A stretch of DNA of 64,000 nt from positions 62,001 through 126,000 of the forward strand of contig JAOAAY010000001.1 in assembly GCA_026418615.1 (NCBI GenBank). The letters run 5' to 3'. The notes under the pieces were generated by a model that was given only the letters and a program-made list of their open reading frames with translations, made no database searches and was not told the origin of the DNA. Shown here in pieces: positions 4,991-52,326 of this stretch; the first letter of the stretch is position 1, and each line of letters starts with the position of its first letter. Origin of the DNA: Candidatus Sumerlaeaceae bacterium. GTDB lineage: Bacteria > Sumerlaeota > Sumerlaeia > Sumerlaeales > Sumerlaeaceae. The position numbers were made by a program, and so were the translations under genes.

Positions 4991-5056
4991 CAACGCAACG
5001 CACGGAATCACCAAAGCACAAATCTTTTCCTTACGCTACCTCCGCAGGAGACGCGC

Positions 5057-6133: not shown

Positions 6134-6150
6134 CGGCAGAGGTGAACGAA

Positions 6151-6666
6151 ATGGAATTCTTCGAAACACTGTACCAGCGGCGGTCGGTGCGCAAATACAC
6201 GGCACAGCCAGTGGATCCCTCGCTGGTGAAACAAATCCTTGAGGCGGCCAACCGGGCACCATCCGCCGGCAATCTGCAAGCCTACGAAGTGGTAGTCGTC
6301 ACGGATGCCGGGCGCCGGCAGCAACTCGCCGAGACATCGTTCAGGCAGATGTTTGTCGCCGAGGCACCAGTAGTGCTCGTGTTTTTTGCCAATCCGGCCA
6401 GGTGTCGCGAGCGGTACGGCGATCTGGCCGACCGGCTGCTGGCCTTGCAGGACGCAACCATCGCATGTGCCTATGCCGAGTTGGCAGCAGCCGCGCTTGG
6501 ACTCGGTGCCTGTTGGATCGGCGGCTTCGGCGAGGCCGTCGTTCGAGAGGTGTGCGAGGCTCCCGAATCGTGGATTCCCATTGCACTGCTGCCGATCGGT
6601 CACCGGGCGGAGCAGCCGGAGTTACAGCCTCGTCGCACGCTCGAGGACCTATGCAAATACCTCTGA
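6151..6666 (+). CDS. Nitroreductase family protein
   Basis: RRSVRKYTAQPVDPSLVKQILEAANRAPSAGNLQAYEVVVV; GLGACWIGGF. Confidence 0.9.
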   Translation: MEFFETLYQRRSVRKYTAQPVDPSLVKQILEAANRAPSAGNLQAYEVVVVTDAGRRQQLAETSFRQMFVAEAPVVLVFFANPARCRERYGDLADRLLALQDATIACAYAELAAAALGLGACWIGGFGEAVVREVCEAPESWIPIALLPIGHRAEQPELQPRRTLEDLCKYL

Positions 6667-6814: not shown

Positions 6815-8443
6815 ATGGAGAGTCGCCTAGCCGCATGGTGGCATCCCGGCGACACGGAATCCGTTACGGATGCGCATGGGTTCAAGCGCCTGCTCCACAA
6901 CCTGAGCGAGCCGGTTATCGTCGTGGAGACGCCGCAGGGACACGCCGCCGTCACGGGTGGCCGGCTGGAGATGGGGTCGGGAGGAACGCTCTCGGATGGT
7001 GCTCTCCCAGTCGTGGCGTATGCTCCCCCACTGACTCCTCCCCAACTTGGAGATCCGGCCTTCCGCCAGGCCCACGGGGTTCGCTGCGCTTATGTCGCGG
7101 GCGAAATGGCCAACGGTATTGCCTCGACAGCCATGGTTGAGGCCATGGCACGCGCCGGCATGCTGGGTTTCTTCGGCAGTGCCGGTTTGTCCATTTCGGA
7201 GATTGAGGCGGCGGTGGCCCGCATTCAATCGGCAGTTGGCGGCCTTCCCCACGGTTTCAACCTCATCCACAGCCCCTACGAGCCAGCGCTCGAGGAGGCA
7301 ACGGTTGATCTCTATCTGGCTCGCGGAGTGCGTCTCATTGGTGCAGCGGCCTTCCTCGATCTGACGCCCGCCCTTGTCCGATACCGCGTAAAAGGTTTGC
7401 GCAGATTACCGGACGGAACGGTGGAGATCCGCAACCGCGTGGCAGCCAAGATTTCGCGAGCGGAGGTCGCGCGTAAATTCATGGCTCCTCCCCCGCCGGA
7501 CATACTGACTCATCTGGTCGAGGGAGGACACATCAGCCGCGACGAGGCGGAATTGGCATCCCGTATCCCGATGGCGGATGACATCACAGCAGAGGCCGAC
7601 TCCGGCGGCCATACGGATAACCGCCCCGCGATCACCCTGCTTCCGGGCATGATGGCTCTGCGTGACGAACTGCAACTGGTTCACCGATTCGCCACGCCCG
7701 TGCGCGTCGGCCTTGCGGGCGGAATTGCCACACCGGAGTCCGTGGCCGCGGCATTCGCGATGGGCGCAGCCTATGTTTTGACCGGTTCCATCAATCAGGC
7801 CTCCGTCGAGGCCGGCACATCACAGTTGGTCAAGGACATGCTGGCCAAGGCCGGGCAGGCCGATGTGGTCATGGCTCCCGCGGCAGACATGTTCGAGATG
7901 GGCGTCAAAGTCCAAGTGCTCAAGTGGGGCACCATGTTTCCAGTCCGGGCTAAAAAACTTTATGATCTTTATCTCCAACACAGCGGGCTGGAAGACCTCG
8001 CCCCTTCAGTGCGACAAATGCTCGAGCGCGATTACTTTCGCTCAACACTGGAACAGGCTTGGGCCGAAACAGAGCAGTTTTTTGAGCAGCGCGACCCAAC
8101 CCAAATCGCCCGCGCTCGACGCGACCCCAAACATAAAATGGCGCTCTTGTTCCGGAAATACCTTGGTCAGTCATCGTCGTGGGCCATCATGGGCGACCCC
8201 ACGCGCCGCCAGGACTTTCAGGTCTGGTGCGGCCCGGCGATGGGAGCGTTTAATGACTGGGCCCGCGGCTCGTTTCTCGAGCAGCCTAAGAATCGCACGG
8301 TGACAGCCATGGCCGTGAATCTGATGGCGGGTGCATGTGTCATTCAACGGGCAGCATGGCTCCGCTTGCAGGGCGCGAGGCTTCCGGTGGGCGTTGATCG
8401 CTTCCGCCCGGTACCTCCGGACGACTTGGCCCGGTACATCTGA
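6815..8443 (+). CDS. pfaD: PfaD-like enoyl reductase (PUFA/secondary-lipid synthase ER, 2-nitropropane dioxygenase-like)
   Basis: PfaD hallmark stretches: SPYEPALEEATVDLYLARGVRLIGAAAFLDLTPALVRYRVKGL; GLAGGIATPESVAAAFAMGAAYVLTGSINQASVEAGTS; MFEMGVKVQVLKWGTMFPVRAKKLYDLY. Start at internal ATG 6815 preferred over 6674. Confidence 0.92.
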   Translation: MESRLAAWWHPGDTESVTDAHGFKRLLHNLSEPVIVVETPQGHAAVTGGRLEMGSGGTLSDGALPVVAYAPPLTPPQLGDPAFRQAHGVRCAYVAGEMANGIASTAMVEAMARAGMLGFFGSAGLSISEIEAAVARIQSAVGGLPHGFNLIHSPYEPALEEATVDLYLARGVRLIGAAAFLDLTPALVRYRVKGLRRLPDGTVEIRNRVAAKISRAEVARKFMAPPPPDILTHLVEGGHISRDEAELASRIPMADDITAEADSGGHTDNRPAITLLPGMMALRDELQLVHRFATPVRVGLAGGIATPESVAAAFAMGAAYVLTGSINQASVEAGTSQLVKDMLAKAGQADVVMAPAADMFEMGVKVQVLKWGTMFPVRAKKLYDLYLQHSGLEDLAPSVRQMLERDYFRSTLEQAWAETEQFFEQRDPTQIARARRDPKHKMALLFRKYLGQSSSWAIMGDPTRRQDFQVWCGPAMGAFNDWARGSFLEQPKNRTVTAMAVNLMAGACVIQRAAWLRLQGARLPVGVDRFRPVPPDDLARYI

Positions 8444-8456
8444 CAGGCGTTGGCAG

Positions 8457-11400
8457 GTGAAGGTGTCCGGCACATCCACAAAGCCAATAGAACTAACAGC
8501 CACACCCTTGGCGGTGATTGGCGCCGGCGCCCTGTTCCCAGATGCCGACGGCCTGCAAGAGTACTGGCGTCTCATCCGGCAATCCAAAGATGCAATCCGT
8601 GAGGTTCCCCCCGGCTATTGGTCGGCCGACGACTATCTAAAGCCGGAACGGGCCTCGTGCGGCCCCGGTTTGGACTATGTTGCCGCCGCGCGCGGCGGGT
8701 TCATTCCGGCCGTGGATTTCGATCCGACCGAGTTCGGTATCCCCCCGACCATCCTTGAGGCGACAGACACGGCCCAGTTGCTCTCCCTCGTAGTCGCCCG
8801 ACAGGCTTTGGAGCACGCCGGATATGGTGAAAAGCGGGAATTCGACCGCACACGATGCAGTGTCATTTTGGGTGTCACGGGGACGCTGCAACTGGTTGTC
8901 CCATTAGGAGCGCGCCTTGGTCATCCTCTGTGGCGACAGGCGCTGATCGAGTCAGGAATCGCGCCCGAAGTCGCCCAAGAGGTCATCGAGCGTCTGGCCG
9001 AAGAGTATGTCTCGTGGCAGGAAAATTCCTTCCCCGGCCTGCTTGGCAATGTCGTGGCTGGACGAATTGCCAATCGTCTCAACCTCAGAGGTACGAATTG
9101 TGTCGTAGATGCCGCCTGTGCCAGTTCCCTCAGCGCCATCCATTTAGCCGCTCTCGAACTGACAGCCGGGCGCGCCGACATGGTGCTGACCGGCGGAGTG
9201 GATGCGTTCAACGACATCTTCATGTTCATGTGTTTCTCGAAGACTCAGGCGCTATCTTCAACTGGGGATGTGCGTCCCTTTGATGCTCAAGCCGACGGGA
9301 CCATTCTCGGCGAAGGGGTCGGCATGGTTGTCCTCAAGCGCCTCGACGACGCCCGTCGCGATGGTGATCGCGTGCTGGCCGTGCTCAAAGGTTTGGGGTC
9401 CTCCAGCGACGGACGCTCTCAGAGCATTTACGCCCCACGCGCCGAGGGACAGGCTCAGGCGCTACGCATCGCGTACCAAATCAGTGGGATCAGCCCCGCT
9501 ACTGTCGAACTTGTCGAGGCTCACGGAACGGGAACGCGGGTCGGTGATGCGACAGAGTTCGAGGCCTTGCGGACCGTGTATGCCGAGAGTGGACGGAGCG
9601 GTGGGCCGTGGTGTGCACTCGGAAGCATCAAATCGCAAATAGGCCACACCAAGGCGGCCGCGGGTGCTGCCAGCCTCGTCAAGACGGTCCTCGCCTTGTA
9701 CCACAAAGTCTTGCCGGCAACCATCAAGGTCGCGAAGCCCAATCCCCAACTGCAATTGGCGAGCAGTCCCCTTTATCTGAACACGGAGACTCGTCCGTGG
9801 TTGGCCCCTGACGGGTATCCGCGTCGGGCTGCGGTGAGTTCATTCGGGTTTGGCGGCAGCAATTTTCACGCGGTTTTGGAAGAGAGCGACACCCCAACGC
9901 GAGAACCCGCTTGGGATGGTTCCGTGCAAATCTTGGCCTGGTCCGCTGACACGCCTGAATCGTTGCTTTCCGCAATTCGCGCGCAAGCCGAGAAACTGAT
10001 TCAAGAAAAGAACCAGAAGTTATTTGCTTTCAACGCTTTCCAAACACGGAACGCGTTCGATTCGCGTCGTCCTTACAGGGCTTTGATGGTCGTCGAGGGC
10101 CCCAACGATATCGAAGTCACCATCGGGGACTTGTGTCGCCACATCGAGGCGCAACCCAAGGCCCAACTGATGAGTCGCCGAGCCTTCTATGGCTTCGGCG
10201 AGGCCCTCGGCGATTTATGTCTGCTGTTCCCCGGTCAGGGCAGTCAGTATGTCATGATGGGCCGGGATTTGGTCTGCATATTCCCCGAGGTCCGCGAAGC
10301 GCTGGAACTAACAGGTGAAGCGGGTCGCGCAGTCTATCCCCTGCCGACTTTCGACCCTGCTGAACGCGAGCGGCAGGCGGCTACCCTCGCACGCACAGAA
10401 ATCACGCAGCCGGCCCTGGCAGGCTTAGAATTGGGCATGCTGCGTCTCCTTGATCGCTTCGGCGTGCGGTTTGATGCGACGGCGGGACACAGTTTTGGCG
10501 AGTTCGTGGCCCTGCGGGCAGGATCTGCGATTGATGACGCAACCTTGGTCCGCTTGGCGCGCGAACGCGGCCGACTCATGGCGGGTACTGGTGAAGATCG
10601 CGGCACCATGCTGGCCGTGCAAGCGTCCTTAGCCGAACTCCAAACTGTGGCGAACGAAATTGGCCAGGGCCTCGTGCTCGCCAACTATAATAGCCCCACG
10701 CAAGGCGTGCTCAGCGGCCCCCGCCCCACCATTGCGATTGCCAAGTTACGCTGTGAGGAGCGCGGTTGGACGGTTCGAGCGCTCCCCGTCTCGGGCGCCT
10801 TCCACAGCAGCCTGATGTCCGATGCGAGCACCGCATTTGCAAATGTTTTGGATGAATCTGAGATTCGCGCGCCGGTCGCGCGCGTTTACTCGAATGTGAC
10901 TGGCGAGGCTTACCCGGCTGAGGTGCCAGCAATCCGTTCGTTGCTTGCACGCCAGTTGCTGAGCCCGGTGCGTTTTGTGGACCTGATCGAACGAACCTAC
11001 GCCGACGGAGTCCGGACTTATCTCGAGGTCGGCCCCCGGACCGTGCTGTCCTCCCTAACGCGCGCCATTTTGGACGGCCAGCCCTGCCAAATTCTCTCGA
11101 TGGACGCCTCGGGCGGCAAGGGCTGTGGGATCGCCGATTTGGCCCGCACGCTGGCCGGGTTGGCTGCGCTCGGCCACCGCGTGGATTTGACCGCTTGGGA
11201 AGTGCCAGTAGCCGAGCCCCGAAAACCGAAAATGGTTGTCAGGCTGACTGGTGCCCCCTATCGCGCCCCACGCCTTCCTAAGCCGGTTGACAAGCCGGTC
11301 GTCAGGACGCCGATGCATGAGACGGTTGCAGCAGCACTGCCGCAAATTCCATGCGTCCCTGCGGATGGATCATCCGGCTCAAGAGTTATGGAAAGCACGC

Positions 11401-14400
11401 ATCACAGCACCACGACCGTGACCAAGGGTTCACCAGATCAACCGGCTACTCTCACGGCCCTTTTGGAAACTGTTCAGGAGGGCCTGCGCGCCATTCAGGA
11501 GGTTCAACGCCAGACGGCTGCCGCCCACGAGAAATTCCTCGAGGTGCAGGCCGAGGCTCAACGGTCGTTCCAACGGATCATTGAGAGTCAGCAGGCTTTG
11601 GCTTCGGGTGGCACAATCGCCATCCCGCAGTCACCGACAACACCTGTAACAATCCCTGCGCCTACGCCACCTGAACCCACTCCGCTGCCCAAGGCGCCGG
11701 AACCCCCGCCCCCGCTCCAGTCAGAGCCGGCAGCATCTGCACCAAAGCCGGCGGGATCCGAGGTGGAAGCCATCCTTTTGTCCATCGTCGCGGAACTCAC
11801 GGGATATCCATCAGACATGTTGGATGCTTCCATGGACATGGAGGCTGATCTCGGCATTGATTCCATCAAACGCGTCGAAATTCTCGCTTCCCTTCAGAAG
11901 CGGATGCCGGGTTTGCCGCAAATCAACACGGCTCAATTGGGGTCGTTGCGGACGCTGCGGCAGGTGGCAGAGCATGTCGCGGCGCAGTCTGGTGTGCCCT
12001 CGCAGGCTCCGAGTCCTGCCCCAGTCGTCGCTCCGTCCAACTTGGGTATGTTGGAGGCCGAACTGGTTTCGATCGTGGCCGAGTTGACCGGTTATCCGGC
12101 CGATATGCTGTCGCCCGAAATGGATCTGGAGGCCGATCTCGGCATAGACTCCATCAAAAGAGTTGAAATTCTCGCGGCTGTTCAAAAACGGCACCCCGAA
12201 CTGCGCTCGGCGAGTTCGGCTCACTATGGCGCCCTGCGCACTTTGCGACAGGTGGCCGAGCAGTTGGCAGCCGATGCAGGTTCTATTCCGACTTCCACTG
12301 AGCCCCCTACGGATCGGCAAAATGCTCACGGGGGTCGCACAGAAGACATCTCGGCCGTGATGCTCGATGTGGTTGCTGAATTGACCGGCTATCCGCGCGA
12401 CATGCTCAGCGCTGACATGGACATGGAAGCGGATCTCGGCATTGATTCCATCAAACGCGTCGAAATTCTGGCTGCACTGCAAAAGAGAAAACCTGCGCTC
12501 AGGAATGTGAGTGCGTCGGAATTGGCGGGGCTTCGCACGGTGCGGGCCATTGCCGCGCATTTGTCTGCCAGCGAAGCAGTGGAGGAAACGCAAGTTGGCG
12601 GCGTTACGGGTAACCCCGCCGGATTTTCGACGGTCTCAGCCCCAACCCCGACGGCTGTGCAAGACACGACACTGCGCCGGCTCGTGGTCCCCAGAGAAAT
12701 AGGGATTTCGGGAACAAACGGCGCCGGCCTGCCGGTTCCGCCGGGGGCGACACTACTTGTTTTAGGCGAGGACGACCTCGCGCGCGAGACGGTCCGCACA
12801 TTGTCCCAGCAGGGGTTTAGCGCCCGGCTCGCATCACCGCTCGAGCCGCTGCCCGCGGGAGATTTGTCTGGCCTGATTGCCATCGCGCCTGCGTCTGAGT
12901 CGTCGGACCGCGAGGCAATCAGTTTTGTGTCTGCGACTTTCCGCGCTGTGCGCGATGCCGGCGCCCGCCTCCTTGGCGCCGCCAGCCGGGGTGGTGCCTT
13001 GTTGGCCACTGTAACGCAATTCGATGGGCGTTTTGGACTATCCGGACGCCTGTCTTGCTCCCCGATTTTCGGGAGTCTCGCAGGGCTGACCAAAACCGCC
13101 GCGCACGAGTGGCCGGAAGTCCGCTGCCGCGTGATCGATTTGGATGCTTCCGACGGACACGGGGCCGACCGCGCCGCCGTGTTGCTGGCAGAACTGACAC
13201 GCGCTGACTCGCTCGAGGCCGGCTGCTCGGGCGGGCGGCGTTTTGCACCTGCCCTTCAGGACGCGCCATGGCCGGCCGCAACCGCACCGTTGGGTCCGGA
13301 CGATGTCGTCTTGGTATCGGGTGGCGCACGGGGCGTCACAGCGGAGTGTGCCGTGGCCTTGGCGAAGGCCTGTGGCTCACGCATGGTTCTTCTGGGTCGC
13401 TCGCCAGCCCCTGTGCCGGAACCGCCAGCCTTCGCGGTGGCTACGGATGCGCAATCCCTGCGCCTAGCCGTGGCGGCCAGCCTGCAGGCATCTCAAAACG
13501 GCCGGGTCACGCCTGCGGATATCGAGAAGGAAGTCCAGCGCGTCCTCGCCAATCGGGAAATTTCGGCTACGCTGGCCCGCTACGGCCAACATGGCCTGCC
13601 GCCGGCTGAATACCACCCCGTTGACATCCGAGACCGGGACGCCGTTCACCGCCTGATCCACGAAGTGTTGCATCGCCACGGCAGGATCACGGGGCTCATC
13701 CACGGGGCGGGGGTCATTGCCGACAAGTTTTTGTTAGATAAAACAGACGCGATCTTTGACCGCGTCTTCGGCACCAAAGTTGTGGGGCTGTTGAATCTGC
13801 TCGAGGCTCTGGAGAACCAGCCGCTCAAGATTGTCGCCCTGTTTGGGTCGGTTAGCGGCCGGTTCGGCCGGCAGGGGCAGAGCGACTATGCCATGGCAAA
13901 CGAGGCTCTAAACAAAATGGCGATCGCTCTGCAGACCGCGCGTCCGTCGTGCCGTACGGTCTCCATTAATTGGGGGCCTTGGGACGGCGGCATGGTCACT
14001 CCGCAACTTAGGGCTGAGTTTGAGCGCCTTGGGGCTCCGCCCATGTCGATTCAAGCGGGAAGTGCGGCTTTCGTGGCGGAACTGTCGGTCCCGCCGCCGG
14101 GGCCGGCTGAGGTGGTCATTGGATCTGCCCTGCCGGCAGCGGCGCCCAAGTCTGGTGCGAAGGGATGCAGCAGTAAGCCTTCAGGTGCGACCGCCAAAAT
14201 GTCGGTTGTGTTTGAGCGCAATCTCAGCGCGAAGCGCCATGCGTTCCTCGACTCGCACATCGTGGGCGGCAACCATGTGCTGCCCGTGGCGGTGATCTTG
14301 GAATGGCTTGGGCATGCAGCGCTGCACGAAAATCCGGGCCTGCACCTCGTGGCTTTGCGTGACCTCAGAATCTTCAAGGGGGTTCTCCTCAACGGCGGCA

Positions 14401-15062: not shown

Positions 15063-15073
15063 AACGCGCCATC

Positions 15074-18000
15074 ATGCCCGTCGCGCCTATCGCCATCGTC
15101 GGGCTCGGTGCCGTGATGCCCGGCGCCAGCACTCCAGAAGAATTGTGGGAACACATTCTTCGGCGCGAGCCGCAAGCGCGCGAGGTGCCACCCGGCCGAT
15201 GGATTGTGGATGCTCACCGTGTCCTTTCCGGGGCACCGGAACCCGACCGGGTCCTGTCGCTGCGCGCGTGCTTGGTGGAGGGCTTTTCTCCCGACCTGGC
15301 CGGTTTGGATCTCGATGCAGAGTTCCTTAAACGCCTCGACCCGATGTATCACCTCGTCTTGCATGCGGGGCGTGCAGCGTGGCAGTCGGCTTGCACCAAA
15401 CAAGTTGATCCCGACCGCACCGGCGTGGTGCTCGCGGCCATAGCCCTGCCCACGGACGCATCGTCCGCGTTCACGCGTCAGACCTTGGGGCGTCAATTTG
15501 AGGAGCAACTGCTGGGGCATGTTGCCCCGCCCTCGGCATGGACCTCCGGCACTACCGATCCCGCCAACCTGCGCGTCACAGGCCTGCCAGCCGCGTTACT
15601 GGCGCGCGCCTTGGGCGTCCGGGGCTGCGCCTACACACTGGATGCAGCGTGTGCGTCCAGCCTTTACGCGATCAAACTGGCGTGCGACGAACTGGCCGAA
15701 GGGCGGGCGGACGCCATGCTGGCGGGCGGCGTCTCAAGGCCGGAAAACCTCTACACACAAATGGGCTTCTCGCAGTTGCGCGCGCTTTCCCCGACGGGAC
15801 GCTGCGCCCCGTTTGACGCCCGCGCCGACGGGCTCGTGGTCGGCGAGGGCGCCGGCATGGTGGTGCTCAAGCGGCTCGACGATGCTCTCGCCCACGGCGA
15901 CCAGATTTTCGGCGTCATCCGTGCCGTGAATCTGTCCAATGATATCGGTGGGTCCCTGCTATCGCCGGAAACGGAAGGACAATTGCGCGCTCTCCGCGGC
16001 GCATATGAACGGGCTGGATGGCGTCCTGATGATGTGGATTACATTGAATGCCATGGGACCGGAACGCCGGTCGGCGACGCAACAGAACTCCTGAGTTACA
16101 CGCGTTTGTGGGAGGGCCTGACCACACGCAGCGGGCAGTGCGTCCTTGCTTCCGCAAAATCCGTTGTCGGTCACCTGCTCACGGCAGCAGGGATGGCCGG
16201 CCTGTTTTCTGTTTTGCTCGCCCTGCGATACCGCTGCTTGCCGCCCACGGCCGGGTTCGAATCGCCGCCTGCAGGCAGTCCACTCCACGGCAGCCCGTTT
16301 CGGGTCCTGCGCGAGGCCGAGCCTTGGCCCAAGCGGGCGCTCAACCGTCCGCGGCGGGCAGGTCTGAGCGCCTTCGGCTTTGGCGGCATCAACGCGCACC
16401 TACTTGTCGAGGAATATGATGCGTCTCTTGCCGACGCCCGGCAGGGCAGACTCGTCTCTGTGCCGGCCGAACCGCCGGCACTTGAAATCGCCGTCGTCGG
16501 CCTCGGTGCGCGTACGCGCACGGCCGCATCGTTAGATGATTTTGCGCAGTGGCTTGCGACCGGCGAGAGCCCGTCGCGCGATTTCGGCAGTGCGGCCACA
16601 CTCGAAATCCCGTTGGGCCGGTACAAGATTCCGCCCAGCGAGTATCAAGACATTCTGCCCCAGCAACTCCTCGCCCTGGAAGCGGCTGCGCAGGCGCTCG
16701 AGGACGCACAGATTGACAGGAATGAGAAGCGCCCGCGCGCCGGCGTCGTGGCCGGGATGTCGCTCGACCCTAACACATCGAACCACCATCTGCGCTGGAT
16801 GGCCGAAACGCTCGCCCCGCAATGGGCGCGCTCGCTTGGACTCGACGCGCAAGATTCGCAGGCACTCCACTGTTGGGCGACGGCCCTCAAGGATGCCCTC
16901 GGCCCGGCTCTCAATCCGGTGTCGGTGATCGGTTCGCTCGGGAATATCATCGCCAGCCGGATTGCCAAGGAGTTTCATTTCGGAGGACCGGCTTTTGCCG
17001 TCTCCGACGGCGAGTTGTCCGGTATTCAGGCGCTGGAGATAGCGTGCCGCTCCCTTGCACGAGGCGAGACGGACCTCATGGTGGCTGCGGCAACGGATTT
17101 GCCGTCGGACGCGCGAGCGAGACAGGCTGCCTCGGGGTCGTCCAACACTCCGCTGGACTGCTCGGTTGCGCTGGTGCTCAAGCGCCTTGTTGATGCCCAG
17201 CGGGACAAGGATCGGATTTACGCCGTGATTCGGGATGTTCAGCGCGCCGGACCCGGCGATGATGCTCTCGCGCGCGCTTACCAGCGCGCGATGGCGCGGG
17301 CCGATGCGCCACCGCACGAATCGCTCGCCTACCACGAGTTGCCTCGCGCGGAGGAGGCCGAACTCCTTCCCCTGCCACCGGCGCCGACCGGCCGGCTTCG
17401 AGCCGCCAGCGCTGTCCGACATTTTGCCGGCGCATGCAGTGGTCTTTTGTCGGTCTTCAAGGCGGCGTGGTGTTTGCACCGCGAGATTCTTCCTACAGGA
17501 GTGAATGGTGCTTCAACACTGCCCGCCTCGTGGCATTCGCCGCGCAAACCCGTTGCATGGCTACGCAACCGCGCCGAAGGCCCTCGAAGGGCTGCCGTAT
17601 GGGGACGCTCCGAAAATGGCTCTGCGGCCTGTGTCCTGCTCGAGGAGGGGCATGACCCGGTCGGTGAGACGGCCAGCCATGCCGCGCGCCCGCTCGGGCT
17701 GCCAACGGCCTTGTTCGGAGTTTTTGCCGAGACAACGGAGCGCCTTCTGGCCGGTTTGGATGCCCTCAAAGCGTTCGCCCACAGCGCCCAAGAAGAGACG
17801 CTCTCAATACACCGGCTGGCCAGCCGTTGGCACAACTCCGCTCACGCGCGTTCCGCGCGGTGCGCCGTGGTTGTCATGGCGCGGGACGCCCGGTCGCTGG
17901 CCCGGGCGGTCGAGGCGGCGCAAACATCTGTGCGCGACGAGACTTGTATACGCGCGGCTGGTGACCACGGCGTCTTTTTTTCCCGCCACCCCGCAAGTCT

Positions 18001-21000
18001 GTCAGGACGGTTGGCATTTGTTTTTCCGGGTTCAGGCAATTGGGCGCCAGGTCTCGGCTCCGACATCGCCCTGCACTGGCCCGCCATCTTGCGACGCCTC
18101 GACAAAGCCAGCCTTTATCTGGCAGATCAGTTTCAGCCGGCTTTGACCGTGCCGTACAGGGCAGCGTGGCCCGAGGGCTGGGAAGCAGCAACCATCCGAA
18201 GGTTGGAGTCCGACGCTCGGACAGCCATCCTCGCACAAGTGTCACATGCCGCTCTGGTGTCCGAGATTTTGGTCTCGTGCGGCGTGCGACCGTCTGCCTG
18301 CATTGGATATAGCCTCGGCGAGTCAAAGGCCTATCTTGCCATGGGTGTTTGGCGGGACCGGGATCTGCTATGCCGCCGCACGCTCGAATCGCCCCTGTTC
18401 ACGCGAGATTTAGGCGGCGAATTCCGACTCGCTGAAGAGGCTTGGGGACGACCCGGCGATGGGGGCGACCCTTGGACTGTGGCGGTGATCCCGCGATCAG
18501 CCGACTTCGTTCGCTCGGCAGCGTCAGGGGTTCCCAATGTTTATGTGTTGATCGTGAATGCCCCCGACGAATGCGTCGTTGGAGGACACCCGGACAGCGT
18601 CGTGCATCTTGCCCAACTCTGCGATGCTCAAGCCGTGCCGGTGCGAGGTGTTACATCGGTTCATTGCCCTCTGGTCGAGCGCGTGGCGAAGGAGTATCGC
18701 GACCTGCACCTCCTCCCTGTCACACCGCGAGAGGACATAACATTTTACAGCGTGGCCCGGGGTGGCCCTGTCGAGCAGACATCCGAGGCGCTTGCGGACT
18801 CCATTCTGTCCCAAGCGCTGCACGGTTTCGATTTTCCGCGAACAATCCTCCGGGCCTACGAGGACGGCATACGATTTTTTGTCGAGGTGGGTGCAGGGTC
18901 TTCCTGCACCCGCGTGATCCGGCGCATCCTCGGTGAGCGCGATCATGTGGCTATCCCCACCTGCCCGATGGGGACCAATGAGGTGGAGGCTCTTCTCGAG
19001 GCCTTGGCCGTGATGGTTGCCGAGCGGTTCGTTCCCGACCTGTCCGGATTGTACGGCTCGGAGAGTGAGTCAGCCGAACTTCGCGGCCCTGACACGCCGG
19101 ATGCCCGCACTGTGTCCGTCCCTGTAGGCCCAAGGATTTCGCTGCCGCCTGCACCGCCTGCGGCAATTAATCGTCCGGCGGTGCGAAGCGTGGTCAGCGC
19201 TGACGCATCCCCGCAGTATGCGACTGCCGCTCGATCCAAACCCAACGCCTCTGTGACACTGCTGCGCGCCGCCGCAGAGGCGGCCGGAGCCACTGCGATT
19301 GCACACGAGGCTTTTCTGCGAACCTCCCGATTGGCTTCGGCAAATCTTTTTGCGGCCGCCACGCTGCAAGCCGCCTTGCAGAGGCAACTGCAGGTGGTCG
19401 GTGCACCGGCCGACGGCGTCGTGCAACCGGCCACCGCGAGCCATCGGCCGCAGGCCATCGCGTTCCCCTACGAAAAATGCCTCGAATTTGCCCGCGGCTC
19501 CATAGCCGCCGTTCTCGGCCCGGAGTTCGCTGAAGTAGACCGCCATCCGACTCGTGTGCGCCTGCCGGATGAGCCCCTGATGCTCGTTCACCGAATCGTG
19601 CTGGTTGAGGGAGAACCAAAGTCGCTTAGAGAGGGCCGCATTGTTACCGAGCACGATGTGCCAGAACAAGCATGGTACCTTGACTGCGACCGGGCACCGG
19701 TCTGCATCAGCGTCGAAGCGGGTCAGGCAGACCTTTTTCTGTGCTCCTACTTGGGCATAGATTTTGTCACGCGGGGCGAGCGCGTGTACCGTTTGCTTGA
19801 CGCGACCGTGGAGTTCCACCGCGGACTCCCCCGTCCCGGCGAAACCATCCGCTACGACATTCGCATCAGTCGCTTCGTCCAACAAGGGGATACATGGCTT
19901 TTCTTTTTCCAGTTTGATGCCACCGTTGCGGGCCACCCGTTGCTAACGATGCGAGACGGGTGCGCCGGATTTTTTACAGAACAGGAAATGGCTGACAGCG
20001 GCGGAATCGTTTTAACCCCCGAACAGCAAGTGCCTGTGCCCCGGCGCACAACGCCCGATTGGCCTCTGCAACTACCGTTTGACACATCAGAAAAGTACTC
20101 CGCGCAACAGGTTGACGCGCTGCGTGCTTCGGATCTCAGGGCGTGTTTCGGGGAGCAGTTTAGCCGGCTGCCTTTCACGCCACCCCCGCTGCCCGACGGC
20201 CGCCTTCGTCTGGTTCACAGAGTCAAGGCCCTCGAACCGTACGGCGGACGCTATGGCCTCGGGCGCATAGTCGCCGAAGCGGACATTCATCCCGATGACT
20301 GGTTCCTGACCTGTCACTTCGTGGACGATATGGTGATGCCGGGCACCCTGATGTACGAATGCTGCGCCCACACACTCAGGATCCTGCTGATGCGCATGGG
20401 CTGGGTTGGGCCGGTCGGCGAGATCGCCTTCGAGCCGGTGCCCGGCGTCCGAAGCAAACTCAAATGTCGCGGACCCGTGACCACGAACACCCGGGTGGTC
20501 ACTTACGAATTGGTCATCAAAGAAGTCGGCTACCGTCCTGAACCCTATGCGATTGCCGATGCTTTCATGTACGCCGACGGCCGTCGCATTGTTATGTTCC
20601 ACGACATGAGCATGCAGGTCACCGGGCTGACGCGCGAGGTTGTTGAGAGCCTGTGGCGCGCCGCCAAGTCCGACAGTGGCTCGACGCCGATGGATCCCCC
20701 GATCGGTTCGGTCGCCGTTACCGGCGTGCCACAACCCGCACTGTTCGATGACCGCTCGATACGCGAATTTGCCGAGGGCAGGCCGTCGGCAGCCTTCGGC
20801 CCGCTGTACAAGGATTTTGATGGTGACCGGTTCATCGCGAGGCTGCCGCGCGCCCCCTATCTCATGATGCATCGGGTCACGGCCATCGGCGACTGCGAGG
20901 CATGGCATCTCGCACCAGGCGGATGGGTGGAAGCCCAGTACGATGTGCAACCTGATCATTGGTGCTTTGCGGCTAACCGCATTCCTGTCATGCCATTTGC

Positions 21001-21871
21001 TTTCCTGCTGGAAGCCGCCCTCCAGCCGTGCGGATGGATGGCCGCGTATCAGGGTGCGGCCCTCAGAAGCCATGAAGGACTTCATTTCCGCAATTTGGGA
21101 GGTCGCGGCACCCAGTGGCGCGAAATCCCGGCGGCTCCGGCCACCCTCACCACGCGATGCAAAATGCTCAGTGTCTCCGAGGCCCACGGAATGATAATTC
21201 TGGACTACGCCGTGCAAGTCTGGGTCGGGGCCGATCTGGCTTACGATGCGCGGACGAATTTCGGGTTTTTCACGGCGCAGGCCCTGGCTCAGCAAACCGG
21301 CATCCGTGAGAGCATGGCACGGCCAATCGGGGCCGCGTTGCACGACTCGGTCACCCTGCACATTCCCCATCTGCCGCCCTTCGCACCGGATGATCCGGCC
21401 AGGGACACAACCGCTCCGGCGGCATGGCCCTCGCGCGCTCTGCTGATGTTTGACCGCATCAAGCACTGGTCTCCATCAGGCGGCGCTGCCGGGCTTGGCC
21501 ACATGGTTGCCACCAAAACCGTTGATCCATCCGAATGGTTTTTCCACGCCCACTTCAAGGATGACCCTGTCTGGCCGGGATCGCTCGGTTTGGAAGCACT
21601 CCTACAGATGCTCAAGGTCGCAGCCCACGAAAAATGGGGCGGCAGCGCCGGTAACAAACTCCGCCCCCAGGCGCCTGCCCTCGGCATCGAGCATGCTTGG
21701 ACATACCGCGGCCAAGTCCTGCCCGGCAATCACGAGGTGACGCTGGAAGCCTCGATCACGAGTGCAAAAGGTGCGCCTGAACCTGTCATCAGGGCCGATG
21801 GGTTTCTCAGCGTTGACGGGCTGACGATCTACCGTATGAACGATTTCTCCGTGCGCCTTGTGGAGGCGTGA
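15074..21871 (+). CDS. pfaC: PfaC/Pfa3-like multidomain synthase: KS-CLF-AT-(hotdog/DH)x4
   Basis: KS with DAACASS (Cys codon 15650); second KS-like domain VSDGELSGIQAL with Cys replaced by Glu (codon 17012); AT GYSLGES (18305); C-terminal FabA-like hotdogs including HFVDDMVMPGTLMYE and HFKDDPVWPGSLGLEALLQ. Confidence 0.9.
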   Translation: MPVAPIAIVGLGAVMPGASTPEELWEHILRREPQAREVPPGRWIVDAHRVLSGAPEPDRVLSLRACLVEGFSPDLAGLDLDAEFLKRLDPMYHLVLHAGRAAWQSACTKQVDPDRTGVVLAAIALPTDASSAFTRQTLGRQFEEQLLGHVAPPSAWTSGTTDPANLRVTGLPAALLARALGVRGCAYTLDAACASSLYAIKLACDELAEGRADAMLAGGVSRPENLYTQMGFSQLRALSPTGRCAPFDARADGLVVGEGAGMVVLKRLDDALAHGDQIFGVIRAVNLSNDIGGSLLSPETEGQLRALRGAYERAGWRPDDVDYIECHGTGTPVGDATELLSYTRLWEGLTTRSGQCVLASAKSVVGHLLTAAGMAGLFSVLLALRYRCLPPTAGFESPPAGSPLHGSPFRVLREAEPWPKRALNRPRRAGLSAFGFGGINAHLLVEEYDASLADARQGRLVSVPAEPPALEIAVVGLGARTRTAASLDDFAQWLATGESPSRDFGSAATLEIPLGRYKIPPSEYQDILPQQLLALEAAAQALEDAQIDRNEKRPRAGVVAGMSLDPNTSNHHLRWMAETLAPQWARSLGLDAQDSQALHCWATALKDALGPALNPVSVIGSLGNIIASRIAKEFHFGGPAFAVSDGELSGIQALEIACRSLARGETDLMVAAATDLPSDARARQAASGSSNTPLDCSVALVLKRLVDAQRDKDRIYAVIRDVQRAGPGDDALARAYQRAMARADAPPHESLAYHELPRAEEAELLPLPPAPTGRLRAASAVRHFAGACSGLLSVFKAAWCLHREILPTGVNGASTLPASWHSPRKPVAWLRNRAEGPRRAAVWGRSENGSAACVLLEEGHDPVGETASHAARPLGLPTALFGVFAETTERLLAGLDALKAFAHSAQEETLSIHRLASRWHNSAHARSARCAVVVMARDARSLARAVEAAQTSVRDETCIRAAGDHGVFFSRHPASLSGRLAFVFPGSGNWAPGLGSDIALHWPAILRRLDKASLYLADQFQPALTVPYRAAWPEGWEAATIRRLESDARTAILAQVSHAALVSEILVSCGVRPSACIGYSLGESKAYLAMGVWRDRDLLCRRTLESPLFTRDLGGEFRLAEEAWGRPGDGGDPWTVAVIPRSADFVRSAASGVPNVYVLIVNAPDECVVGGHPDSVVHLAQLCDAQAVPVRGVTSVHCPLVERVAKEYRDLHLLPVTPREDITFYSVARGGPVEQTSEALADSILSQALHGFDFPRTILRAYEDGIRFFVEVGAGSSCTRVIRRILGERDHVAIPTCPMGTNEVEALLEALAVMVAERFVPDLSGLYGSESESAELRGPDTPDARTVSVPVGPRISLPPAPPAAINRPAVRSVVSADASPQYATAARSKPNASVTLLRAAAEAAGATAIAHEAFLRTSRLASANLFAAATLQAALQRQLQVVGAPADGVVQPATASHRPQAIAFPYEKCLEFARGSIAAVLGPEFAEVDRHPTRVRLPDEPLMLVHRIVLVEGEPKSLREGRIVTEHDVPEQAWYLDCDRAPVCISVEAGQADLFLCSYLGIDFVTRGERVYRLLDATVEFHRGLPRPGETIRYDIRISRFVQQGDTWLFFFQFDATVAGHPLLTMRDGCAGFFTEQEMADSGGIVLTPEQQVPVPRRTTPDWPLQLPFDTSEKYSAQQVDALRASDLRACFGEQFSRLPFTPPPLPDGRLRLVHRVKALEPYGGRYGLGRIVAEADIHPDDWFLTCHFVDDMVMPGTLMYECCAHTLRILLMRMGWVGPVGEIAFEPVPGVRSKLKCRGPVTTNTRVVTYELVIKEVGYRPEPYAIADAFMYADGRRIVMFHDMSMQVTGLTREVVESLWRAAKSDSGSTPMDPPIGSVAVTGVPQPALFDDRSIREFAEGRPSAAFGPLYKDFDGDRFIARLPRAPYLMMHRVTAIGDCEAWHLAPGGWVEAQYDVQPDHWCFAANRIPVMPFAFLLEAALQPCGWMAAYQGAALRSHEGLHFRNLGGRGTQWREIPAAPATLTTRCKMLSVSEAHGMIILDYAVQVWVGADLAYDARTNFGFFTAQALAQQTGIRESMARPIGAALHDSVTLHIPHLPPFAPDDPARDTTAPAAWPSRALLMFDRIKHWSPSGGAAGLGHMVATKTVDPSEWFFHAHFKDDPVWPGSLGLEALLQMLKVAAHEKWGGSAGNKLRPQAPALGIEHAWTYRGQVLPGNHEVTLEASITSAKGAPEPVIRADGFLSVDGLTIYRMNDFSVRLVEA

Positions 21872-21935
21872 GTGGCAGTCCGGTCGGCGTTAGGGGTTGC
21901 ATTGCGCACGGACCGCCCAATACCTGATGAGTTTC

Positions 21936-22976
21936 ATGCGTTTCAACCGTGTGAACATAGAATCCTTTGGCTATGAACTGGCGCCCAATGTGGTGTCATC
22001 GGACATGCTTGAGCAGCGACTGGCGCCGGTTTACACGGCGCTGGGGATTGCGTCAGGCCAGATCGTTGCACTTACCGGCGTGCGCGAGCGGCGCTACTGG
22101 CATCGCGGCCACATGATGTGGCAGGGCGCAGCCGCCGCCGGTCGCAAGGCTCTCGAGGCCGCCGGCTTGAGCGCAACAGAAATAGACATTCTTATCTTTG
22201 CATCTGTTTGCCGCGATCACCTTGAGCCCGCCACGGCCTGCGCCGTCGCCGACGCTCTCGGAGTATCGGGTAACACGGAAATCTACGACATTTCCAATGC
22301 CTGCCTTGGCGTCCTAAACGGCATGATCAATGTGGCGACAGCCATCGAGTCCGGTCGCGCTCGCACTGGACTGATCGTGGCTTGCGAGACGGCACGAGAA
22401 ATCGTGGACATCACCATCGAGCGTCTGTGCGCCCGCCCCGACATGGAGTCCTTCAAGAAATCTCTTGCAACCATGACTGGCGGTTCCGGTGCGGCGGCAG
22501 TCTTGCTGCGGCATGCCGCCGATTCCTCGACGCGCCGGCGCCTGCTCGGGGGCGTGGTCCGCAGCGCCGCCGAGCACCATCGGCTCTGCCGATGGGGGCC
22601 ACCCATCGGAGTGTCGGACGCGGTTCCTATGGAGGCAAGCACGGACGCCGCAGCCGTGCTCCAGAACGGTGTAGTGCTGGCTTCACTGACATGGAAGGCT
22701 TTCCTGCAAGAAATGGGATGGGATGCCGCGACCATTGATCGCACGATCTGTCATCAGGTCGGTGAGGGGCACCGTTTTGCATTTCTGCAAGCGGTTGGCA
22801 TGCCTCCGGAAAAAGACTATCCGTCCTATGGTTTTCTTGGCAACATGGGCACAGTTTCCCTGCCGCTGACAGCCGCCCTCGCCGACGAGAGGGGATTCCT
22901 CGCACCCGGTCAGCGGGTGGCTCTGCTTGGCATCGGGTCTGGCCTTAACTGTGTTATGCTCGGCGTAGAGTGGTGA
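21936..22976 (+). CDS. oleA: OleA-like thiolase (head-to-head acyl-CoA/acyl condensing enzyme)
   Basis: DISNACLGVLNGM (Cys codon 22302), CETAREIVDITIERL, CHQVGEGHRFAFLQAVG, FLGNMGTVSLPL, ALLGIGSGLNC: matches remembered OleA rather than FabH; start at internal ATG 21936. Confidence 0.9.
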   Translation: MRFNRVNIESFGYELAPNVVSSDMLEQRLAPVYTALGIASGQIVALTGVRERRYWHRGHMMWQGAAAAGRKALEAAGLSATEIDILIFASVCRDHLEPATACAVADALGVSGNTEIYDISNACLGVLNGMINVATAIESGRARTGLIVACETAREIVDITIERLCARPDMESFKKSLATMTGGSGAAAVLLRHAADSSTRRRLLGGVVRSAAEHHRLCRWGPPIGVSDAVPMEASTDAAAVLQNGVVLASLTWKAFLQEMGWDAATIDRTICHQVGEGHRFAFLQAVGMPPEKDYPSYGFLGNMGTVSLPLTAALADERGFLAPGQRVALLGIGSGLNCVMLGVEW

Positions 22977-23896
22977 GCGGCAGGATGGCTTTTTCGACAA
23001 CCTCCATCGCCCACCTCTACCCCTTTGAATCCCGCTGGTTTGACTGCAACGGTCAAACCATGCATTATGTGGACGAGGGGCGGGGAAAGGTTGTCGTCTG
23101 TGTGCACGGAAATCCGTCATGGTCGTTTCTGTTTCGCGGTGTCATCAGCGGCCTTCGCGATCGCTACCGTGTCGTGGCGCCGGATCACATCGGATGCGGC
23201 CTGTCGGCCCGTCCGAAAAGAGAGGAATATCCCTTCACATTAGAGCGGCGAGTCTCGGACTTTAGGCTGTTCATGGACCATGTCTGCCCGTCCGACCCGG
23301 TGACTCTGCTCGTTCACGATTGGGGCGGATTGATTGGCTTGGCATGGGCCGTGCGCAATCCGGCACGCGTTCAAAGCCTTATCATAACGAATACTGCGGC
23401 GTTTCCCATGCCGGCCGGCAAACGGGTGCCATGGATGCTATCATTTGTGCGACGCTCCGGCCCCGTTGCTGCGATCCTGATTCAAGGTTTCAATGCTTTC
23501 GCAAGGGGAACGCTTTGGGTCGGATGCAGCCGTCCGGTGACCCCTGATGTCCGGCGCGGCTACCTTGGTCCGTACGATTCGTGGCGCAACCGGTTGGCCA
23601 CGCTCCTTTTTGTCAAAGATATCCCAGCAACTCCTCTCGACTCCTCCTATCCGGCCCTGCTGGAGGTCGCAGAGGGTCTCAAACAGTTTCGTGACACGCC
23701 CGCGCTTGTCTGCTGGGGGATGAAGGATCCGGTCTTTGATCCGGATTATCTGGCCGAGTGGCGAAACCGCCTGCCTCAGGCTCAGGTCGTGCAGTTTGGC
23801 GACGCAGGTCATTACTTATTCGAAGATGCCGGTGATGCCATCATGGCGCCAATAATCAAGCATCTGGACCGTCTCGCGGGGCGAACACATGACTGA
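22970..23896 (+). CDS. oleB: OleB-like alpha/beta hydrolase (beta-lactone decarboxylase, haloalkane dehalogenase-like)
   Basis: HGNPSWSFLFRGVI, VHDWGGLIGLAWA nucleophile elbow with Asp; between oleA and oleC; GTG 22970 or ATG 22985. Confidence 0.88.
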   Translation: MVSGRMAFSTTSIAHLYPFESRWFDCNGQTMHYVDEGRGKVVVCVHGNPSWSFLFRGVISGLRDRYRVVAPDHIGCGLSARPKREEYPFTLERRVSDFRLFMDHVCPSDPVTLLVHDWGGLIGLAWAVRNPARVQSLIITNTAAFPMPAGKRVPWMLSFVRRSGPVAAILIQGFNAFARGTLWVGCSRPVTPDVRRGYLGPYDSWRNRLATLLFVKDIPATPLDSSYPALLEVAEGLKQFRDTPALVCWGMKDPVFDPDYLAEWRNRLPQAQVVQFGDAGHYLFEDAGDAIMAPIIKHLDRLAGRTHD

Positions 23897-25571
23897 GTTG
23901 ACCTCTGCATCGGCGACCGCGCCGCCGCCGCAAGCGAATGTTGCCGCCCTGCTGAGGGAGGTTGCGGCAGCAAGACCCTACAAGAAGGCAGTCGTGACAC
24001 CGTGCGGACGCGATGCAGCCGGCCGCAGACGCTATGTTCACCTGACATTCCAGCAGTTGGATGCCGAGAGCGACCGCTACGCCCACGGGCTTCGACGGGC
24101 TGGTGTCGGTGTGGGGTCGCGAGTGCTGGTCTTTGTCCCGCCGGGACTCGACTTCTTCGCCCTGACCTTTGCCGTATTCAAAGTTGGCGCTGTGCTGGTT
24201 CTCATTGATCCGGGAATCGGCAGAGTCGGCCTTGCGGAGGCTTTGCGGCCTGTGCAGCCGGAGGCGTTCATCGGCGTGCCCCGAGCGCACCTGCTGCGCC
24301 TACTGCATCCGTCCTCCTTCCGTTCAGTTCGCTTGCCGGTCACAGCAGGCCCGCGCTTGGGGTGGGGAGGCCTGTGCTTGCGCGATCTCCGCGCCGACGA
24401 TGCGACACCTTTTCCCATGGCAGAGACGACCGCCGCATCGCCCGCCGCCATCTTGTTTACCTCCGGCAGCACGGGCCCGCCCAAGGGTGCCCTGTACACT
24501 CACGGAAATTTCCTTGCTCAGATTGACACGCTTCGGCGTGTGTGGGGCTACGGTCCCGACGACACCGATTTGGCCACCTTTCCCTTGTTTGCCCTGTTTG
24601 ACGCAGGGCTAGGCATGACGGCGGTCATTCCGGATATGGATGCTACGCGTCCAGGATCGGCAGATCCGGTTAACATTATCGAGGCGATTACCGATCACGG
24701 CGCCACCACGATGTTTGGTTCGCCGGCTTTGCTGGCGCGGCTGTGTCTTTACGGTCGCCGACACGGGCTGCGCCTGCCATCGCTGCGTACTGTAGCCTCA
24801 GCGGGTGCGCCCGTGCCTCCGGCCACGCTTGACACCCTAAGGGGTTTTCTGTGCGCCGAGGCCAATGTTTTTACGCCGTACGGCGCAACCGAATCGCTGC
24901 CCATTGCGTCCATCGAAAGCCGGGACATCTTGGGCGTAACCGCCGCGAAAACCGGCCGAGGCTGGGGAACTTGCGTGGGAAAACCCGTTGACGGTGTTGA
25001 GGTTCGCGTCATCGGGGTGACCGATGACCCCATCGAAACCATGGATTCTGCAACACTCCTGCCGCCCGGCGACATCGGAGAGTTTATCGTCAGCGGTTCC
25101 GTCGTGACGCGTGAGTACTACAATCAGCCGGAAGCCACACGACTGGCCAAAATTCGCGACGGCGAACGCGTGTGGCACCGCGTCGGCGATTGCGGTTATG
25201 TGGACGCGGCCGGCAATCTCTGGTTCTGCGGGCGCAAGAGCCACAGGGTTGTAACCGCAGGGGGCGTCCTGTTTACCGAACCGGTCGAGGGAATCGTCAA
25301 CACCCACCCGGCCGTGGCTCGCAGCGCACTCGTTGGCGTCGGACGGGCACCCAATCAGCAGCCCGTCGTTGTTGTGGAACTTAGGGAAGACAACCGTTTT
25401 GCCGATGAGCGGGAAATCATCCGTGAAATTCAGGCTCTGATGCAAACCCAACCTATTACCTGTCAGATTCGCTCGGTTTTAGTTCATCCCCGGCTGCCAG
25501 TGGATGTCCGGCATAACTCGAAAATCATTCGCGAAAAGTTGGCTCAATGGGCCGCGGGGAGGCTGGCGTGA
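23889..25571 (+). CDS. oleC: OleC-like AMP-dependent ligase (beta-lactone synthetase)
   Basis: LFTSGSTGPPKGALYTHGNF, TPYGATESLPIASIESRDI; 8-bp overlap with oleB. Confidence 0.9.
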   Translation: MTELTSASATAPPPQANVAALLREVAAARPYKKAVVTPCGRDAAGRRRYVHLTFQQLDAESDRYAHGLRRAGVGVGSRVLVFVPPGLDFFALTFAVFKVGAVLVLIDPGIGRVGLAEALRPVQPEAFIGVPRAHLLRLLHPSSFRSVRLPVTAGPRLGWGGLCLRDLRADDATPFPMAETTAASPAAILFTSGSTGPPKGALYTHGNFLAQIDTLRRVWGYGPDDTDLATFPLFALFDAGLGMTAVIPDMDATRPGSADPVNIIEAITDHGATTMFGSPALLARLCLYGRRHGLRLPSLRTVASAGAPVPPATLDTLRGFLCAEANVFTPYGATESLPIASIESRDILGVTAAKTGRGWGTCVGKPVDGVEVRVIGVTDDPIETMDSATLLPPGDIGEFIVSGSVVTREYYNQPEATRLAKIRDGERVWHRVGDCGYVDAAGNLWFCGRKSHRVVTAGGVLFTEPVEGIVNTHPAVARSALVGVGRAPNQQPVVVVELREDNRFADEREIIREIQALMQTQPITCQIRSVLVHPRLPVDVRHNSKIIREKLAQWAAGRLA

Positions 25572-26590
25572 CAGGCACGACTCGCGGGCGCGTTCTGGTG
25601 ACCGGCGGAACCGGCTTCATTGGGCGCGCTGTTGTCTCCCGGCTGGTTTCGCAGGGTTGGACAGTGCGCAGCCTGAGCCGGCGCCCTGATGAGGCGCTTC
25701 AACGCCTCGGCGTGGAGTGTCATTGCGGGGGTATTGCCGATCTTGCCGCGGTGCGGCGGGCTTGCGCCGATTGCGATGCGGTCATTCACACCGCCGCGAA
25801 GACAGGAGTTTGGGGGTCGAGAAAGGAGTTTATCGAAACAAATCTTCGAGGGACAGAGAATATCCTGACAGCCTGCAGGGGAAGTCGCGTGCGGGCGCTC
25901 GTCCACACAAGTTCCCCGAGCGTTGTTTGCGACGGACGGCCGGTCGAAGGGCAGGACGAGTCGCTCCCGTACCCGCACTCCTATCTTTGCCACTACAGCG
26001 AGACGAAAGCCTTGGCCGAACAGGCGGTCCTCGCTGCCAGCGGCCCTGATCTGCCCACCGTTGCGCTGCGGCCCCATCTCGTGTGGGGTCCGGGAGATCC
26101 GCATCTTCTGCCGCGCCTTGTCGCTCGCGCCCGAACCGGCCGTTTGCGCATCGTGGGCGACGGTAGAAACCGCGTGGACGCAACATACATTGACAATGCC
26201 GCGGATGCGCACTTGCTGGCGCTCGAATCGCTCCTGAATCCCGCCCGAGCGTGCGCCGGAAAAGCCTATTTCATTGCCAATGACGAACCCATGCCCCTTT
26301 GGGATCTTGTCAACCGCCTACTGGCTGCGGCCGGGCTGCCGCCGGTACGCCGGCGAGTCCCGGCTGGCGTGGCCGCTGCGGCAGGGTTTCTATTGGAATC
26401 TCTCCATCGGGCGTTTGCGCCCCATCGCGAACCCCTCATGACGCGCTTCGTGGCCCAGCAATTGTCCATGCCCCACTGGTTCAATCTCGCCGCTGCCAAG
26501 CGAGATATCGGATACCGGCCCGTTGTCAGCACCGAGGAGGGACTGAGGCGACTTCAGGCAGCCCTGCGTGCCGGGAGTAAAGGCGACTGA
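25568..26590 (+). CDS. oleD: OleD-like NAD(P)-dependent beta-keto acid reductase (SDR/epimerase family)
   Basis: VLVTGGTGFIGRAVVSRLV, YSETKALAEQAVL (YxxxK); probable GTG start overlapping oleC stop (GTGA). Confidence 0.9.
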   Translation: MTGTTRGRVLVTGGTGFIGRAVVSRLVSQGWTVRSLSRRPDEALQRLGVECHCGGIADLAAVRRACADCDAVIHTAAKTGVWGSRKEFIETNLRGTENILTACRGSRVRALVHTSSPSVVCDGRPVEGQDESLPYPHSYLCHYSETKALAEQAVLAASGPDLPTVALRPHLVWGPGDPHLLPRLVARARTGRLRIVGDGRNRVDATYIDNAADAHLLALESLLNPARACAGKAYFIANDEPMPLWDLVNRLLAAAGLPPVRRRVPAGVAAAAGFLLESLHRAFAPHREPLMTRFVAQQLSMPHWFNLAAAKRDIGYRPVVSTEEGLRRLQAALRAGSKGD

Positions 26591-27345
26591 TGGAGCATAA
26601 CTGGACGATGGTTTCCTGTGCCGGATTGCCGGCGACAGCGCCGCGACAAGGCACCGTGAGCGTTTACTGCGTGCATGCCGACCAACCATTTCTTGACTGG
26701 CAGGAGTGCATGGTTTTGCTGGACGAGGACGAGCAAAGCCGTGCGGCACGATTGAAATTTGACGAGCCGCGACGGCGCTATGTTCTGGCACGCTGCCTGC
26801 TCCGGTGCGTGGCCGGTGCCGTGCTGGACCACGACCCTGCAGCACTGCGATTTTTTTACATGCCCTCAGGCAAGCCGGAACTCGAGTGGCCCGAGACGAC
26901 GCCGCCGTTTTATTTTAATCTGACGCATTCCTTCGACCTCGTGTTGCTGGCCGTGGCGCGCCATGCGCCGGTCGGCGTGGATGTGGAGAAGCGTCGAGTT
27001 CCCGGCGACATTCACCGGATTGCATCCAAGCATTTCCTGCCGGACGAGGCCGTGCAACTCGCCTCAATGCCGCAACCCCTGCAGCCGGAGGCCTTTTTGC
27101 GCGCCTGGACGCGCAAGGAGGCCTGCCTAAAGGCCATCGGCGGGCACTTGTTCCGCGATCTCAAACGGTTTCATGTATCGCTCCATCCGTCCGAGCCGGC
27201 CACCCTCCTCGGCACGACTTTGGAAGGTCGCAACGCAGGCGAATGGCACATGGCTCATCTCGAACCGGCCGACGGTTATCTCGGGGCGCTTGCCGTGATG
27301 GCGCCATTCGAAGGCCTCGCGACCTATCGAGTTCTTGCCGGCTAA
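26590..27345 (+). CDS. Sfp-type 4'-phosphopantetheinyl transferase (PfaE-like role)
   Basis: PVGVDVEKRR and RAWTRKEACLKAIGGHLF motifs; ATG overlaps oleD stop (TGATG). Confidence 0.92.
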   Translation: MEHNWTMVSCAGLPATAPRQGTVSVYCVHADQPFLDWQECMVLLDEDEQSRAARLKFDEPRRRYVLARCLLRCVAGAVLDHDPAALRFFYMPSGKPELEWPETTPPFYFNLTHSFDLVLLAVARHAPVGVDVEKRRVPGDIHRIASKHFLPDEAVQLASMPQPLQPEAFLRAWTRKEACLKAIGGHLFRDLKRFHVSLHPSEPATLLGTTLEGRNAGEWHMAHLEPADGYLGALAVMAPFEGLATYRVLAG

Positions 27346-38469: not shown

Positions 38470-38606
38470 GGGTGGTACTCCCCCATCTCGTTTGGTGCCT
38501 CGCGGGCTATTTCGACGATTGCCCAGAGGCAACTGCTTATGTTGAAAGACTGTTTTCGCTGCGGATTCGCCCCGCACCCGGCGCAAGAGCCGGTGAAAGC
38601 CGCCGG

Positions 38607-52214: not shown

Positions 52215-52326
52215 GGACGGCGGTTATGGGCGCGGGTGCCCGGCACCGCAACGGTTTTTGCAGACCTCTGATTACCGTCTTAGGCGTTGACCCGCGGCGC
52301 AGGCACGCTGTGACCTGCAGGCCGTC

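Follow-up and report, generated by a model that had tools for sequence, protein, structure and literature searches.

In the 64,000-nucleotide stretch of Candidatus Sumerlaeaceae DNA analysed here (hereafter the window), eight plus-strand genes at positions 6815-27345, in the order pfaD, pfaA, pfaBC, oleA, oleB, oleC, oleD and PPTase, very probably constitute a complete pfa-ole cluster for polyene hydrocarbon synthesis, of the Geobacter bemidjiensis type (Table 1). The earlier note on this DNA had read the locus as a one-operon route from both modules to a polyene, and gene content, motifs, conserved linkage and the G. bemidjiensis precedent all support this reading well; all eight genes, on one strand and in the order and at the coordinates that it gave, were recovered with open reading frames and family models. 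The novelty of the linkage that the note implied does not hold, as the exact order has already been published: in G. bemidjiensis, which produces C31:9, a tandem array runs through pfaD, A, B, C, oleA, B, C, D and pfaE (PMC4882568), and the same kind of reading was proposed by Shulse and Allen in 2011 for Type I clusters (PMC3098273). Adjacent pfa and ole operons have also been described in Photobacterium profundum SS9 (PMC6463001). The cluster is real, conserved and functionally well read, and it is a known type in a new lineage; what is new here is of modest value (the host lineage, a separate PfaC clade and a patchy, transfer-like distribution), and no new kind of chemistry is opened by it.

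Table 1 Genes of the pfa-ole cluster in the window, with predicted functions, start codons and junctions.
Gene	Position	Strand	Predicted function or domain order	Start	Junction with next gene (bp)
pfaD	6815..8443	+	trans-acting enoyl reductase of Pfa synthase	ATG; ORF opens 6674	gap 13
pfaA	8457..15062	+	KS-AT-ACP-ACP-ACP-KR-DH (PKS type)	GTG 8457 (probable)	gap 11
pfaBC fusion	15074..21871	+	KS-CLF-AT-(pseudoDH-DH)-(pseudoDH-DH)		gap 64
oleA	21936..22976	+	acyl-acyl condensing thiolase	ATG 21936; ORF opens TTG 21897	overlap 7
oleB	22970..23896	+	beta-lactone decarboxylase, haloalkane-dehalogenase-like alpha/beta fold		overlap 8
oleC	23889..25571	+	olefin beta-lactone synthetase, AMP-forming ligase superfamily		overlap 25
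oleD	25547..26590	+	2-alkyl-3-oxoalkanoate reductase, extended SDR		overlap 1
PPTase	26590..27345	+	Sfp/HetI-type phosphopantetheinyl transferase, pfaE equivalent

Expected active-site motifs were found in the proteins of the cluster. Among the synthase genes, pfaD scored 630 bits against TIGR02814 (pfaD_fam, cut-off 449) and matched the solved PfaD structures 6lkc and 4yx6 over nearly its full length (E<=1e-159), while pfaA reached 1486 bits against TIGR02813 (cut-off 1010) and retains the KS Cys/His/His, the AT motif GHSFG, three LGIDS ACP serines, GGARGV and YxxxN in the KR and HxxxGxxxxP in the DH. The third gene, called PfaC-like in the note, does contain a PfaC part but is not a plain PfaC: it is a PfaB/PfaC fusion in which KS-CLF-AT precedes FabA-like units. 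Its KS has DAAC with both His residues, its CLF has VSDG and lacks the Cys, its AT has GYSLGE, and the catalytic motif is kept in two FabA-like hot-dog units (CHFVDDMVMPG and HFKDDPVWPG). Since the AT region matches the PfaB family, the fusion supplies the PfaB function; the cluster showed neither a PfaT-like thioesterase nor a stand-alone PfaB. The last gene belongs to the ACPS superfamily with an N-terminal PPTase domain (HetI model 140 bits below cut-off) and carries GVDVE, WTRKE, FNLTH and GKP. Compared with the Type I PPTase consensus (P0 hRxhLS, P1a x(G/D)xP, P1b (F/S)NxSH), P1a is present as GKP and P1b as FNLTH, with Thr for Ser, and P0 is not clear.

The ole genes were assigned with evidence that differs from gene to gene. 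The strongest case is oleA, with 453.5 bits against PRK09258 (cut-off 285) versus just 73.8 of the 292 bits required by the fabH model, a full-length alignment to the Xanthomonas campestris OleA structure 3row (211 bits, whereas no non-OleA structure listed exceeds 82 bits), and all of the catalytic Cys, His and Asn as well as the conserved Glu-Pro. The gene lies inside OleA, and its assignment survived the possible refutation named in the note, a placement outside that family. For oleC, 683 bits against PRK09274 (cut-off 478) and the motifs TSGSTG, YGATE, GDCG and GRK agree, and its next-best hits are the narrower OleC equivalogs of Xanthomonas and Shewanella, below their cut-offs (596/900 and 511/850). 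The oleB, oleD and PPTase products match their families but fall under strict equivalog cut-offs where such exist. The best NCBIfam hits of oleD are two OleD models (about 415 and 393 bits), and its score of 414.8 against the equivalog cut-off of 580 is weak counter-evidence, because the OleD of Geomonas edaphica misses that same cut-off (480.7) and the threshold is therefore narrow; by position and by motif (Rossmann GGTGFIG, YSETK) the gene appears OleD-like. The oleB product matches Abhydrolase_1 and has an HDWGG nucleophile (Asp), HGNP and GDAGH; it is 40-55% identical to the oleA-adjacent gene in many pfa-ole loci, and no OleB-specific model was among its family-model hits, so that its predicted identity is based on fold, motif and position between oleA and oleC.

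The eight genes likely form one transcription unit, and co-transcription is what we infer from their arrangement. Promoter-like and terminator-like sites are roughly as numerous within the cluster as in shuffled sequence, and the gene 3' of the PPTase gene is convergent (27355-29967). The layout is far beyond chance: 14 of the 20 pfaD-bearing stretches retrieved from other genomes share this order. As a compact eight-gene operon, the cluster would be a convenient target for heterologous expression. Directly upstream of pfaD, on the same strand, genes for a corrinoid protein, an MtaA/URO-D-like methyltransferase and a nitroreductase occupy 4337-6666. They were rejected as operon members, having no homologue in the retrieved pfa-ole loci, which extend only about 1 kb upstream of pfaD, and they are likely a C1-transfer set unrelated to the cluster.

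The note had proposed a search for co-localised pfa and ole genes across genomes, and the linkage proved to be conserved in several phyla, against another of the four refutations that the note had named (no conservation in relatives). An OleA alignment, scanned against named bacterial genomes, yielded 568 confirmed relatives, and of the best 80 of these oleA loci, 67 have a pfaC homologue upstream of oleA on the same strand, a frequency that is biased since the 80 were picked for closeness to the OleA of the window. Downstream of oleA in those 67 loci are most often oleB, oleC and oleD, and the hosts include Desulfobacterota, Planctomycetota, Elusimicrobiota, Acidobacteriota, bins labelled Deltaproteobacteria and others. 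PfaD was over its cut-off in all 22 genomes tested, and the 14 stretches mentioned above have pfaD, pfaA, pfaC, oleA and oleB in a row, most of them continuing into oleC. Across 46 loci the distance matrices of OleA and PfaC show a correlation of r = 0.91, no weaker than that of OleA with OleB (r = 0.84) or with OleC (r = 0.83); these Mantel values are uncorrected for species relatedness.

Several loci depart from this arrangement. In four Phycisphaerae bins (L029, L030, L034 and L036), oleA stands alone at about 10001-11041 with neither pfaC nor oleBCD beside it; in three of these loci it follows a conserved run resembling flagellar flhA, flhF and flhG and a sigma factor, and L030 shares most of that run. 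The orphan-oleA genomes checked have pfaD-pfaA(-pfaC) at other loci (L110, L114 and L117) and oleC and oleD-like genes at others again, adjacent in several, which suggests the same pathway scattered over separate loci; the idea that these genomes end at the ketone was dropped given their oleC and oleD-like genes. The uncultured planctomycete PLA1 (L123/L033) has a variant pfaD-pfaA-pfaC-oleA without oleBCD downstream; its pfaA and pfaC are interrupted by unmatched gaps, which in pfaC fall at the expected place of the AT. Another contig has an OleD-like gene and an OleC that exceeds its cut-off. One further contig (L024-L025, G015:C43) has pfaC-oleA-oleB-oleC and no recognisable pfaA or pfaD in about 7 kb upstream.

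Product class and enzyme activities are what we infer from sequence, and the pathway would run as follows. The PPTase would arm the three ACPs of PfaA, and PfaA, PfaBC and PfaD would elongate an acyl chain iteratively with malonyl units. According to published work, a PKS-type DH with ER gives saturated steps and FabA-type DHs give cis double bonds (PMC9702510); here, the PKS-type DH of PfaA with PfaD would account for the former, and the FabA-like DHs of PfaBC for the latter. OleA would then join two of these polyunsaturated chains in a head-to-head condensation. OleD would reduce the resulting beta-keto acid, OleC would form the beta-lactone, and loss of CO2, catalysed by OleB, would leave a long-chain internal polyene. 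In Shewanella C31:9 is pfa-dependent, the chain that OleA condenses in PUFA producers is predicted to be a 16:4n-3 product of the Pfa synthase, and co-expression of pfaA-E with oleA gave a 31:8 ketone (PMC6463001). By analogy, the product here may be a C31 polyene. P. profundum SS9, where the pfa and ole operons are adjacent, nevertheless yielded no detectable hydrocarbon (PMC6463001), and therefore the presence of the genes is no guarantee of the product.

The Pfa synthase could instead mainly supply PUFA, free or in phospholipids, or another secondary lipid while OleABCD uses FAS II chains, the two sets of genes being neighbours in separate pathways. PfaABCDE and OleABCD do each function alone elsewhere, with Stenotrophomonas and other ole bacteria drawing on FAS II chains (PMC6463001), a stand-alone pfa product was raised as a possibility by Shulse and Allen (PMC3098273), and a FabF in the genome of the window exceeds its cut-off, which makes the existence of FAS II there probable. 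However, the linkage is conserved in distant phyla, PfaC and OleA diverge in a correlated manner, and the OleA of PUFA producers condenses exclusively the Pfa-derived chain despite FAS II (PMC6463001), which together make separate pathways improbable. Still less credible is an end before the olefin, at a polyunsaturated ketone or beta-lactone (for example with OleB as a different hydrolase), which the manner of assigning OleB would permit and which recalls OleACD clusters without OleB that are thought to make beta-lactones (PMC7064751), but the nucleophile is present in this OleB, and most loci have conserved the gene between oleA and oleC. The full pfa-ole route thus stays the preferred reading, and the genome's single oleA and the single gene that exceeds the OleC cut-off are both found inside the cluster.

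Among known systems, the tandem of G. bemidjiensis Bem is closest in layout, with matching functions and gene order, ole genes and a PPTase gene following the pfa genes and, in the order as described, no thioesterase listed (PMC4882568), as in the window. The window also shares the fused PfaBC of Type I secondary lipid synthases (PMC3098273) and has the remaining features of that layout, namely a pfaA with KS-MAT-ACPn-KR, a fused pfaBC that combines KS-CLF-AT with two DH units, and the order pfaD-pfaA-pfaBC-oleA-B-C-D-PPTase on one strand. Many of the relatives retrieved are in Geobacteraceae, with about 2 to 5 ACPs by motif count compared with three in the window. The PfaC tree sets the window apart from the Geobacteraceae, in the other of two deep clades, and so its cluster could possibly be of Type K or an unnamed type. 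In Shewanella and Photobacterium, pfaABCDE and oleABCD form the same two modules, but PfaB is encoded separately there and EPA is among the main products; P. profundum SS9 has a pfaT thioesterase between the two operons, unlike the window. Xanthomonas OleA (3row) has the same catalytic residues and Glu-Pro, and we know of no linked Pfa synthase reported for its oleABCD genes. These make olefins from ordinary fatty acids (PMC7064751).

How the cluster reached its host was addressed with trees and distribution. The OleA tree places the window near Planctomycetota rows in a position that is not firm. The tree of the PfaC DH region has two deep clades (100/99), one holding the window with Phycisphaerae, Acidobacteriota and Desulfobacterales, and the other holding Geobacteraceae, Elusimicrobiota, Isosphaeraceae and three genomes of the same class as the window. 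Grouping the window with those three genomes was rejected by the PfaC DH region (p-AU 0.0002) and was not rejected with OleA (p-AU 0.114). At E<=1e-50, OleA occurs in 5 of 39 genomes of the class and in one of eight of the family, the one being that of the window, and the whole cluster likewise in one of eight. The simplest reading of these sequences would be an acquisition separate from that of the three relatives, although loss or old paralogy may instead be the explanation. More speculatively, the whole pfaDABC-oleABCD unit might be a self-sufficient cassette that moves between phyla and entered this class at least twice, and its deep-clade copy in the window could make a polyene unlike C31:9 in length or unsaturation; we hold this combined proposal to be possible but rather doubtful. 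For that clade (Phycisphaerae, Acidobacteriota and Desulfobacterales) we found no reported product in the literature. The tandem unit is a recurrent, probably transferable pathway present in several phyla, and polyene hydrocarbon synthesis may be common in uncultured bacteria, beyond marine gammaproteobacteria or Geobacter.

Judged by RpoB, the host is outside all named lineages compared: identity of the protein is about 55% with Geobacteraceae and does not exceed 56% over long stretches with other named comparators, versus 66-72% with same-family and same-class genomes. Given these identities, the host enolase (70% identical to Geobacter) was rejected as a guide to relatedness. In the same genome no FabH was found apart from the weak match of oleA to the fabH model, and OleA/FabH-like hits are likewise lacking in most same-family genomes. 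Fatty acid synthesis in this family may be initiated without a typical FabH, or the gene may be absent from an incomplete assembly. Elsewhere in the window, a 797-aa ORF at 36193-38586 (minus strand) has no Pfam match, and two divergent O-antigen ligase (Wzy_C) genes lie at 47829-50066 (minus) and 52327-53892 (plus), with a 329-aa ORF that also lacks a Pfam match between them (51430-52419, minus). AT skew is extreme at 48-50 kb, where it reaches 0.365.
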